From NCBI RefSeq assembly GCF_029714325.1, contig NZ_CP121666.1, positions 1,860,001-1,924,000 on the forward strand: a stretch of 64,000 nt of DNA, given 5' to 3'. Position numbers and translations under genes: made by a program. Shown in pieces: positions 47,338 to 52,199 of the stretch. Positions within the stretch are counted from its first letter, which is position 1. Each line of letters opens with the position of its first letter. Below the pieces are notes generated by a model. It worked only from the letters and a program-made list of their open reading frames with translations. It was not told where the DNA came from and made no database searches. The stretch comes from Bradyrhizobium sp. CB1717 (GTDB lineage: Bacteria; Pseudomonadota; Alphaproteobacteria; Rhizobiales; Xanthobacteraceae).

Positions 47338-48039
<702 letters not shown>

Positions 48040-48118
48040 GCCAGTTCCCCATAGTCGCCGCTCCTGGGCGTCAGGTCGGCCGCATTCGCGGCACTCAACA
48101 AAACGCCTTTGAACAACT

Positions 48119-48310
48119 GATTCGGATCCTGACAACAGATGGTTAACAAACTCTGATTCTGGAACGCAAGTCCCCCCGGTGCAATTTTTGTCGAATCGCC
48201 CTAAGGTCTTGCGCTGGAAGCAGCTTTCGTTACCCCGATCTGTTCAAGCTCCACTTTAAGAGACGGGCCTAACCGACTCCCGCGACTCAGCCTTCTTCTG
48301 AAGGGGAGTC
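48119..48310. promoter_or_regulatory. Cluster of six GANTC (CcrM) sites upstream of ctrA
   Basis: GANTC occurs at 48119, 48155, 48193, 48275, 48284 and 48306. Chance would give under one in this 192-bp span. CcrM methylates this sequence and methylation state controls ctrA transcription in Caulobacter. The last two sites sit at the two feet of a hairpin (48284-48310, CCTTC/GAAGG inner stem), which could affect methylation or protein binding. Confidence 0.75.
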
Positions 48311-48440
48311 ACGCTCAGTCACAAAGACAGTGACGCAATGATTAATGATGCGGGTAAACACGGAGTTAAGCGCCGTTCAGAAATATGGCGAAACTTAAGA
48401 GTTTCACCGTGAAGGCCCGGAGCACGACGGCGATCACCTC

Positions 48441-48513
48441 ATGAAAGCCCTCTTATGAAGGCGCGCCCCTTATGAAGGCTCTTGCATGAAGGCCCTTGTA
48501 TGAAGGCTCTTGC
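48441..48513 (+). repeat. Five tandem ATG-GAAGG units ending at the fliI start
   Basis: Units start at 48441, 48455, 48472, 48486 and 48500 (spacing 14, 17, 14, 14). The consensus is ATGAAGGCYCTTGY. Units 1-4 each give a 5-6 codon ORF (MKALL, MKARPL, MKALA, MKALV) whose TGA overlaps the next ATG as ATGA. GAAGG in units 2-4 (GAAAG in unit 1) lies 6-10 bases before the next ATG, so it can serve as its ribosome site. The fifth ATG is the fliI start. Confidence 0.9.
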
Positions 48514-49825
48514 CGAACAGATCGGCGACATCGACGGCGTCAACATCTATGGCCGTGTGGTCGGCGTGCGCGGCCTGATGGTCGAGGTGGCAGGTCCCAT
48601 CCATGCGATGTCGGTCGGTGCGCGGCTCGTGATCGAGACCGGCGCCAACCGTTCCATCCCCTGCGAGGTGATCGGGTTCTCCGGCAACAACGCCGTGGTG
48701 ATGCCGTTCGCCGGGCTCGATGGCGTGCGCCGCGGCTGCAAGGCGGTCATCGCCAATGCGGCCAACCAGGTGCGGCCCTCGTCGGCTTGGCTCGGCCGCG
48801 TGGTCAATGCGCTGGGCGAGCCGATCGACGGCAAGGGGCCGCTGCCGCAGGGCTCCTCGCCGATGCCGTTCCGCAATACGCCGCCGCCGGCGCATTCCAG
48901 GAAGCGCGTCGGCGCGCCGCTTGATCTCGGCGTGCGCGCGATGAACACCTTCCTCACCTGCTGCCGCGGCCAGCGCATGGGCATCTTCGCAGGCTCCGGC
49001 GTTGGCAAATCGGTACTGCTGTCGATGCTCGCGCGCAACGTCGATGCCGCCGTCAGCGTCATCGGGCTTATCGGCGAACGCGGCCGCGAGGTGCAGGAGT
49101 TCCTGCAGGATGATCTCGGCGAGGAGGGCCTCGCACGCTCCGTCGTCGTGGTCGCAACCTCCGACGAGCCGGCGCTGATGCGCCGCCAGGCGGCGTATCT
49201 GACGCTCGCGGTCGCCGAGTATTTTCGCGACGAGGACCAGGACGTGCTCTGCCTCATGGACTCGGTGACGCGCTTTGCCATGGCCCAGCGCGAGATCGGC
49301 CTGTCCGCCGGCGAGCCGCCGACCGCCAAGGGCTATACGCCGACCGTGTTCACCGAGCTGCCCAAGCTCCTGGAGCGGGCGGGGCCGGGCCTTGGCGAAG
49401 GCGCCATCACCGCCATCTTCACCGTGCTGGTCGACGGCGACGATCACAATGAGCCGATCGCGGACGCCGTCCGCGGCATCCTCGACGGCCACATCGTGAT
49501 GCAGCGCTCGATCGCCGAGCGTGGCCGCTACCCCGCCATCAACATCCTCAAATCCGTCTCCCGCACCATGCCGAAATCGGCCGATCCGCAGTTCTGGCCG
49601 ACCATCCAGAAGGCGCGGGCGGTGATGGCGACCTATGCCGACATGGAGGAGTTGATCCGGCTGGGCGCCTACCGGGCGGGGTCCAGCCCGGAGGTCGACG
49701 AGGCGATCCGGCTGCACGAGCCGCTGGAAGCGTTCCTGCGGCAGCGCAAGGACGAAAATGCCTCACTGGCGGACGGCTATCGGCAGTTGGCGCAAATCCT
49801 CGGCAATTTGGAAACGGAACGCTAA
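48500..49825 (+). CDS. fliI: Flagellar export ATPase FliI
   Basis: FliI drives flagellar protein export. The start at 48500 ([18 protein letters not shown]) is the last of five in-line ATGs; an earlier frame begins with TTG at 48482. Walker A is GSGVGKS, the Walker B region is [20 protein letters not shown], and ERGREVQEF is the F-type signature. 441 residues is normal. It is followed by fliJ. The start region is reached through chained mini-ORFs, so translation may be coupled or attenuated. Confidence 0.95.
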
Positions 49826-50557: not shown

Positions 50558-51103
50558 ATGCTGACGCCAGCAGAGCTGGTCGGGCTGATCGAGGCGGTCG
50601 CCAGGGGCGATCAGGCCGCGTTCGAGCGCCTCTACGTCGCTACGCGCGCGAAACTCTATGGCGTCGTGCTCCGTATCTTGCGTCGGCAGGATCTCGCAGA
50701 GGAGGTCATTCAGGAGGCCTACGTCAAGATCTGGAACAGTGCCGGCCAGTTCAATCCGGCGCTCTCGTCGCCGATCACGTGGATGGCGTCGATCGCGCGC
50801 AACCGTGCGATCGACATCGTGCGCAAGAAGTCGGAAGCCTCCATCGAGGAAGAGCCTCAGGCGATGGAGGTTGCGGCCGACAGTCCCGATCCGCTGGCGC
50901 GCCGGGAGATGACCGAGGAGCTGAAGCGGCTCCTGGAATGCATCGGCCGGCTCGAGCCGGACCGCCAGAAGCTCGTGCTGCTCGCCTATTACAACGGCTG
51001 GAGCCGCGAGCAATTGGCGGAGAAATTTGTCGCGCCCGTCAACACGGTGAAGACGTGGCTGCGGCGCAGCATGCTGGATATCCGGGAGTGCCTCGGATTG
51101 TGA
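50558..51103 (+). CDS. ECF sigma factor (SigK/RpoE-like)
   Basis: It has 181 residues with sigma-70 regions 2 (FERLYVATRAKLYGVVLRIL, DLAEEVIQEAYVKIWN, ITWMASIARNRAIDIVRKK) and 4 (LVLLAYYNGWSREQLAEKF, VNTVKTWLRRSMLDIRECL). No region 1.1 or 3. The gene for a RskA-type anti-sigma factor follows 37 bases later, so the two form a stress-response switch. In SigK-type groups the partner is membrane-anchored and released by proteolysis. Confidence 0.9.
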   Translation: MLTPAELVGLIEAVARGDQAAFERLYVATRAKLYGVVLRILRRQDLAEEVIQEAYVKIWNSAGQFNPALSSPITWMASIARNRAIDIVRKKSEASIEEEPQAMEVAADSPDPLARREMTEELKRLLECIGRLEPDRQKLVLLAYYNGWSREQLAEKFVAPVNTVKTWLRRSMLDIRECLGL

Positions 51104-51140
51104 TGGCTCGGACGACGAGGAAGGTTCTGGACTGCAATTG

Positions 51141-52199
51141 ATGGCCTACACGGAGGACCATATCGCGCTCGCCGCGGAATATGCGCTCGGCACCCTCGAC
51201 GCCGACGAGCGCGCGCAGGTCCAGACCATGATGGCGGTGGACAAGGCGTTCGCCGAAATCGTGCAGGCCTGGTCCTATCGGCTCGGCGTCCTCAACCAGA
51301 TGGTCGGCACGATCGAGCCGCGTCCGATCGTGTGGGAGAACATCAGGGCCGAGCTCGCGCGGACGGGCTTTGCACAGGAGCAGCCCGCGCAGGCTGAAGC
51401 CACGCCGCCTCCCGCGCCTGCGCCGGAACCTTCCCCGTTTGACGCTGTGTTGCCGCCGTCTTTGGACAGCGCGCCGCCGGCCGAGCCGCAGCCTGCCGCA
51501 GCGGAGCCGCCGGAAGCGGCGCGGCCGGCTTCCGATACGCTGTCCGATGTCACGCCGATCTTCATGCCGCAGGTCCATGCGCCGGATCCGGGCGTGGTGC
51601 ATGAGCCGCGGGCGCCGATCGCGGACAACAGCAATGTGATCCGGCTCGAAGGCCGCGTGAAGCGCTGGCGCAGCATCGCATCCGTCCTCAGTGCGCTCGC
51701 GGCCGCGCTGCTGGTGACGCTGTCGCTCCAGATCTTCCAGCCCGACGCGCTGCCCGGCGCGTTGCGCCCCGCACCGCGCATCCAGACCGTCGAGGTCAAG
51801 GCACCGGCACCGCTCGCCGCGTCCGCGCAATATGTCGCGCTGCTGCAGGGCCAGGGCGGCGGCCCGGCCTTCATCCTCACCATCGACGGCGCGACGCGGA
51901 ATTTCACCGTGCGCAAGGTCGGCGCCACACCGGAGCCCGGCAAGAGTTTCGAGCTCTGGCTGATCTCCGACAAGCTGCCGCGTCCGCGCTCGCTCGGCGT
52001 GATCGGCCAAGGCGAGTTCACCGCGCGTCCGCTGCTCGCCGGCTACGATGCCGATCTCGTCAACGGCGCGACCTATGCCGTCACCGTCGAGCAGGCCGGC
52101 GGCTCGCCCAGCGGCCAGCCGACCTCCGCGCCGGTGTTTTCCGGCAAGCTGATCGAGACCGTGCCGCCGGCCCAGCCGCAGGTGCCTGCGAAGAAGTAG
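51141..52199 (+). CDS. RskA-type anti-sigma factor
   Basis: The N-terminal domain (YTEDHIALAAEYALGTLDAD) binds the sigma factor. A long Pro/Ala-rich region (residues 85-170) follows, then a membrane helix near 180-195 (SALAAALLVTLSLQIF), and a periplasmic RskA domain (FILTIDGATRNFTVRKVG, GKSFELWLISDKLPRPRSLG). This fits the anti-sigma partner of the upstream ECF gene. The N-terminal His and adjacent residues are like zinc-associated anti-sigma types, but no full HxxxCxxC is seen. 352 residues. Confidence 0.85.
   Translation: MAYTEDHIALAAEYALGTLDADERAQVQTMMAVDKAFAEIVQAWSYRLGVLNQMVGTIEPRPIVWENIRAELARTGFAQEQPAQAEATPPPAPAPEPSPFDAVLPPSLDSAPPAEPQPAAAEPPEAARPASDTLSDVTPIFMPQVHAPDPGVVHEPRAPIADNSNVIRLEGRVKRWRSIASVLSALAAALLVTLSLQIFQPDALPGALRPAPRIQTVEVKAPAPLAASAQYVALLQGQGGGPAFILTIDGATRNFTVRKVGATPEPGKSFELWLISDKLPRPRSLGVIGQGEFTARPLLAGYDADLVNGATYAVTVEQAGGSPSGQPTSAPVFSGKLIETVPPAQPQVPAKK

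Follow-up and report, generated by a model that had tools for sequence, protein, structure and literature searches.

Tandem repeats at start codons are known from phase-variable genes, where an altered copy number switches the reading frame on or off. In ATGA/TGATG termination-reinitiation coupling the stop codon overlaps the next start codon, usually as ATGA (PMC6728339, PMC10666635, PMC12548453), and the ribosome-binding motif often lies inside the upstream ORF; the locus described here is alike in both respects. In published work 13 of 14 tested overlapping gene pairs were strictly coupled (PMC6728339); at +14 nt reinitiation dropped by 40-80%, and of the upstream gene the last 15 nt sufficed (PMC10666635). 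Mycobacterial interspersed repetitive units (MIRUs), as described in PMC12548453, are short repeats at start codons with an ORF coupled to the gene by a -4 nt overlap, whose insertion therefore hardly disturbs expression; they are apparently mobile and insert at start codons. Moreover, in synthetic bicistronic design leaders ribosomes reach the gene by way of a short leader ORF, these leaders being engineered and having one leader ORF (PMC12548453, PMC5995908). No report of arrays like the one upstream of fliI was found by title or abstract in the literature searched, most subscription papers lying outside that search.

Architecture of the array upstream of fliI

In the window (the whole 64-kb stretch of DNA that was analysed) fliI encodes the flagellar export ATPase, of 441 aa, on the plus strand (48500..49825; PF00006, PF18269). 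Its divergent neighbour on the minus strand (47338..48039) encodes an OmpR-type response regulator (PF00072, PF00486), which we take to be CtrA-like. In plasmid records from Azospirillum a single match covers annotations of both CtrA and fliI. Upstream of fliI, and on the same strand, lies a conserved leader block of 18 nt, AAACTTAAGAGTTTCACC (48391..48408), with the first ribosome-binding-like site, followed by five mini-ORFs. Mini-ORF 0 (48409..48444) starts with GTG at the position which the fliI start occupies in relatives with a plain leader, encodes VKARSTTAITS and ends in a TGA (48442-48444) that overlaps ATG 48441. This is the start of mini-ORF 1 (48441..48458, MKALL), the TGA of which overlaps ATG 48455 of mini-ORF 2 (48455..48475, MKARPL, a 17-nt unit). 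In the same manner the latter is joined to ATG 48472 of mini-ORF 3 (48472..48489, MKALA), this one to ATG 48486 of mini-ORF 4 (48486..48503, MKALV), and mini-ORF 4 to the ATG of fliI. Each of the five links is a stop-start overlap of the 4-nt type and the link lengths are 32, 14, 17, 14 and 14 nt, every one of them 2 mod 3. The first 14 nt of fliI, ATGAAGGCTCTTGC, are identical to unit 3.

The first-pass annotation had placed ATGs at 48441, 48455, 48472, 48486 and 48500 and had read the last four of these peptides, all of which is correct, and the overlap of each TGA with the next ATG was confirmed. It had described a chain of four mini-ORFs; those four stand, and a fifth, earlier link at GTG 48409 had been overlooked. 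The 14-bp unit which it proposed holds for three links, the property common to all of them being the length of 2 mod 3. The GAAGG or GAAAG motif reported 6-10 bases before the next start is indeed present, and actually ends 7 or 10 nt before it.

The array obtained the top Tandem Repeats Finder score within the window (70). Pairs of ATGAARG 5-12 nt apart occur seven times in the 9.2-Mb genome, four of them at the fliI array (reversed-pattern control 1), and a looser pattern, three ATGAs at spacings of 14-17 nt, matched 23 places in the same genome, three of them at the array (reversed-pattern control 0). In addition, the region of the leader block at 48387-48408 is an imperfect palindrome (GGCGAAACTTAAGAGTTTCACC), scored as a minus-strand terminator-like stem of a kind expected 0.6 times by chance; it could be a regulator site or a hairpin around the first ribosome-binding motif.

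Distribution and reading frames of the arrays in related genomes

The comparison of copy number in related genomes which the first-pass annotation had recommended was carried out, and the duplications of the start region differ in number and stay a closed stop-start relay. The genus set, probably of Bradyrhizobium, comprised 265 genomes, ten of which were left unclassified (nine without a retrievable fliI start, and L404, whose leader looks plain and failed the start pattern). An array is present in 144 of the 255 classified genomes and a plain leader in 111. In plain leaders the conserved block is typically CTTAAGGTTTTCGCA and the ATG of fliI comes immediately next; in the family outside the genus fliI directly follows the block in 25 of 28 anchorable leaders, the other three being L161, which has an array, and L412 and L414, whose leaders are unrelated. 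The array of the 144 genus genomes lies between the same conserved block and fliI, and its first start lies, counted from where the block begins, at 18 nt in 99 of 102 leaders and at 17 nt in three. Because the first array start occupies the site of the plain fliI start, a chain of starts has taken the place of a single one.

Five changes of array state, each of them forced by starred branches, were mapped on a tree of 115 fliI genes: in the main clade (30 tree rows), in L349, in a clade with 17-nt units (6 rows), in L351 and in L161, which belongs to another genus of the family. The length of the leader changed at least 28 times on the same tree. This tree (115 loci with long enough sequence, 1320 columns) was built by a quick method with SH-aLRT support only and is unrooted; the plain state was taken as ancestral because nearly all outgroup rows are plain. 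The first set of 150 leaders included 129 with arrays, which gave 125 distinct leaders of 46 distinct lengths when identical ones were counted once. All 128 first-set genomes with a fliI at least 94% identical to that of the window carry the array, as do three later ones, and copy number and unit sequence differ between near relatives. The mean identity of the units was 0.58, 0.61, 0.61, 0.53 and 0.46 from rank 1 to rank 5, and a similarity gradient toward fliI, with the newest copy adjoining the gene, is unsupported by these values. L158 and L159 were dropped as duplicates of counted genomes, L412 and L414 were omitted from the array counts, and L141 was counted both in the 125 main-set leaders and among the 14 arrays that lie outside the main clade. 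Leaders lacking a recognisable anchor (L180, L417-L419) and six with no start match (L404, L409, L411, L413, L415, L416) were left without a class.

Where the ancestral position holds a start codon, as it does in 102 distinct leaders, a closed chain leads to fliI without exception. These chains have one to five links, their total lengths span all residue classes mod 3 (52/33/17), and closure holds also for links of 20-104 nt. The remaining 23 of the 125 leaders have no start codon at the ancestral position, where ACG is the commonest replacement; all 23 are closed from the first real ATG or GTG, and 22 also when read from the ancestral site, which has decayed. Arbitrary frames close in 158 of 204 cases (background closure is about 69-77%), since a frame can be caught by any ATGA. 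Closure of the chain is therefore weak evidence when taken alone, and the comparison codon by codon is the fair control and the one most relied on. In the 125 leaders frames are closed from 286 of 287 ATGs, and the same goes for 102 of 103 GTGs; ordinary positions reach 4495 of 6476 (69%), CTGs 54 of 89 (61%) and TTGs 32 of 45. Some codons that are not starts are also often closed (ACG 62/66, ATC 97/110, ATA 29/29, ATT 24/34), which can be explained in part by the fact that they adjoin or derive from ATGs.

In 123 of the 125 leaders the distance from the last ATG or GTG to fliI is 2 mod 3, compared with 31 of 84 for TTG and CTG; the two exceptions, L047 and L141, are apparently due to a chance GTG and to TTG starts, respectively. 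For the last ATGA the distance to fliI is 2 mod 3 in 122 of 123 leaders. Among 261 distances between successive ATGAs, 212 are 2 mod 3, seven are 1 mod 3 and 42 are multiples of three, these last spacings fusing neighbouring units. An N-terminal extension of FliI was rejected as an explanation, because a last link of 3n length hardly ever occurs. Simulated random duplications and deletions keep closure in 61% of cases, or in 49% if they are not multiples of three. The 28 length changes with one break would have a probability of about 2e-5 under the 61% of the simulation, if the changes are treated as independent.

Outside the main clade 13 of 14 arrays are closed from the first start, including one with the starts ATG-ATG-TTG-TTG-TTG-GTG. 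In L349 the start codons have changed to GTG or TTG and closure is retained, and the sole broken array, L328, has a last unit of 16 nt. The contrast between codons is weaker in these 14 arrays (ATG 31/35, GTG 12/16, TTG 12/14, CTG 4/7, other 381/578).

AAGG mostly ends 7, 8, 10 or 11 nt upstream of a start. A strict Shine-Dalgarno-like motif precedes 110 of 125 fliI starts and 75 of 97 first starts; internal starts have it in 183 of 296 cases, an only moderate enrichment over the 2254 of 6946 found for other positions (32%). The strong motif is missing at the first site in 32 of 131 main-clade arrays versus one of 136 plain leaders. Moreover, the first start in the main clade is most commonly GTG (72/131), ATG being found in 30 of 131, whereas it is ATG in all 136 plain leaders. 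The old start site thus seems to be relaxed once an array exists.

Proposed origin of the relay and alternative explanations

The array is probably a stop-start relay to which the fliI translation start gave rise through successive tandem duplications. In the start region, ATGAAGGC, a ribosome-binding-like AAGG comes immediately after a start codon. In a copy of 3n+2 nt the TGA of the copied frame would overlap the next ATG and AAGG would lie 7-10 nt before that ATG. A ribosome initiating upstream would stop on the next start, re-initiate there and proceed link by link to fliI, and ribosomes may also enter at any link. Copies of 3n+1 nt would make ribosomes pass fliI out of frame and copies of 3n nt would give a longer FliI, so that selection would mostly leave the 3n+2 class, whose duplications would be tolerated because only then is the re-initiating ribosome handed on. 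The first-pass annotation had argued that copy changes spare the frame of fliI, which is true for fliI and would hold for any unit length; the actual constraint is that an extra unit must be 3n+2 nt long. It had also offered ribosome hand-over and repeat slippage as alternatives, and both can be kept, as apparently two sides of one thing, in view of the variable copy number and the closed relay in relatives.

We infer that the mini-ORFs are translated, ribosomes being handed on by reinitiation, and the conserved frames suggest, though only indirectly, that fliI translation may depend on translation of the upstream mini-ORFs. Over at least 28 changes in length the path was broken once and otherwise stayed closed, whereas the peptides seem to drift; evolution by itself thus offers evidence that the path is used by ribosomes. 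In our view the arrays are not a sensor but, in the main, an entrenched by-product of duplication, one that is tolerated and seals itself; that copy number varies freely argues for tolerance.

An adaptive role should also be considered, in which the number and strength of the links are selected to set FliI output, as in a rheostat, or to shield fliI initiation from mRNA structure, as in an insulator and in the manner of the synthetic bicistronic leaders. We regard this as possible but unlikely. Arrays arose several times at this single gene, they are carried by every one of the 128 first-set genomes and three later ones with a fliI close to that of the window, and the promoter-proximal site is weaker, both in its motif and in its preference for GTG, all of which would suit such a role. 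Nevertheless, copy number and unit sequence vary among near relatives, which suggests no tight target, the predicted fold of the leader RNA is no more stable than that of shuffles (z-score 0.24), and 111 of the 255 classified genomes of the genus have no array.

The duplication relay must also be weighed against an untranslated repeat, that is, slippage at a short repeat kept by mutation bias, in which case the start-stop overlaps would merely reflect the sequence of the ATGAAGGC unit. The overlap is indeed automatic for any 3n+2 duplication of ATGA, and simple repeats of ATGAAGG or ATGAAGGA with no obvious gene behind them are frequent among the best 80 of at least 117 loci found in all bacteria. 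Such slippage, however, predicts that 3n+1 and 3n should be equally common, and the frame counts already disfavour it: the last ATGA link is nearly always 2 mod 3, closure extends to the links of 20-104 nt, and in L349 it outlived the change of starts to GTG and TTG. We consider this explanation very improbable.

The reading path has been kept, the peptide product apparently not. In 15 distinct 47-nt uORFs (20 close pairs, which are non-independent) 14 of 88 single changes are synonymous, 0.16 versus 0.26 expected, and the entropy at codon positions 1-3 is 0.66, 0.67 and 0.55, with no excess variability at the third position. No constraint on the peptides is thus visible, and a functional peptide was rejected in view of the lack of a synonymous or third-position excess in these uORFs. 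The leader gave two matches to Rfam, both far below the gathering score, and in 48050-48520 neither a sigma-70-type promoter match nor a plus-strand terminator-like site was detected. An attenuator or riboswitch was rejected on the sub-threshold Rfam matches, the ordinary fold and the lack of a promoter match in that interval, and the attenuation device suggested by the first-pass annotation finds no support in peptide conservation, RNA fold or Rfam families above threshold. Short leader ORFs are classic attenuators, but with neither a conserved or codon-biased peptide nor a terminator hairpin found here, a peptide-sensing attenuator or a set of functional small proteins is barely credible.

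Similar arrays at other genes and comparison with known systems

The same pattern occurs at some other genes. When the genus was scanned for three spaced ATGARRG motifs, 66 of 265 genomes gave a match, most often at fliI, and the reversed-pattern control gave 4. Fifteen non-fliI loci were retrieved from it, seven of which are relays into a gene with every unit 14 or 17 nt long. The genes are those for a POR/DUF6537 protein (two genomes), which is probably an indolepyruvate oxidoreductase subunit, a 2-hydroxyacid dehydrogenase, an ABC permease (two genomes), a glyoxalase-like protein and an NMO-family protein (GTG start). The other eight are not relays and have 15-nt or mixed repeats; they include one in-frame N-terminal repeat, one repeat inside a histidine-rich frame and two at a sigma/anti-sigma junction. 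In L431 (1501-1545), from another genome, a 15-nt duplication of the start has added the repeat MKAVFMKAVFMKAVL in frame at the N-terminus, the equivalent of the relay for units of 3n nt.

The oxidoreductase gene was found in 12 of 60 sampled genomes, six with a plain ATGA overlap with the upstream gene, four with one or two 14-nt units, and two being distant homologues with another junction. Together with the two found by pattern there are six oxidoreductase arrays, of one or two 14-nt units, all of them closed. This junction of two coupled genes offers the cleanest replicate of the relay. By measurements published for other gene pairs (PMC10666635), an untranslated 14-nt insert at this junction would be expected to weaken coupling.

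In the window, 2.6 kb downstream of the array, the TGA (51101-51103) of one gene overlaps ATG 51103 of a mini-ORF of 12 codons, MARTTRKVLDCN, and the TGA of this mini-ORF (51139-51141) overlaps the ATG of the next gene, the start-to-start distance being 38 nt, or 2 mod 3 (51101-51143). The gene ending at 51101-51103 is presumably sigma-factor-like. The counterpart of the 51103 mini-ORF in G190 and G216 (L430, L434) has extra 15-nt repeats.

Outside the genus the relay pattern is anecdotal. Three to six units of 14 or 17 nt precede L31, amino-acid-kinase and ABC-2 genes in actinobacterial MAGs, the kinase being, we assume, glutamate-5-kinase-like. At two of these loci the arrays are perfect or nearly so, with six 14-nt units before the amino-acid-kinase gene (L247) and five 17-nt units before the ABC-2 gene (L246), which suggests very recent growth or an assembly artefact. 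The scan of all bacteria, of which the best 80 loci of at least 117 stretches were used for examples and not for rates, returned many simple repeats among the loci listed. In the phylum 20 of 398 genomes matched, two of them of the genus of the window (reversed-pattern control 6). Few of these arrays lead into a gene, L453 and L457 looking so, and generality outside the genus is therefore weakly supported. We give about even chances to a broader proposal, in which bacterial ATGARRG starts would be self-replicating translation modules. Tandem duplications of 3n+2 nt would go unnoticed by the gene, as ribosomes relay through them, and the relays would grow, take over initiation while the original site decays, and become entrenched, in many genes and phyla, as a general route to uORFs.

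These leaders amount to a natural mutagenesis experiment on termination-reinitiation. They provide a simple 3n+2 rule and natural multi-link constructs for reporters, and are a candidate neutral route for the birth of upstream ORFs. In addition, such starts could be misplaced by gene callers.

With the phase-variable repeats the fliI array shares the change of copy number at a start, and it is unlike them in that its copy changes keep the path open. ATGA coupling joins two real genes at one junction, whereas the array has up to five short ORFs (in the window 14-32 nt), shows no sign of a conserved product, varies in copy number and has repeatedly arisen at the start of one gene. An upstream ORF encoding a conserved protein, which is usual and not obligatory in ATGA coupling, is not what the 15 distinct 47-nt uORFs present. 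Unlike the bicistronic leaders the array is natural and has several links. Unlike the MIRUs, units of the fliI type are mostly 14-17 nt long, resemble the start they precede and seem to have arisen locally. Outside the array the search for tandem pairs found three isolated ATGAARG pairs in the genome of the window. The array was not filed as a MIRU because its units resemble the local start, at fliI as at other genes, and tandem ATGAARG pairs are not dispersed in this genome. ATGA coupling and the MIRUs are the nearest known systems, and the array would work like both.
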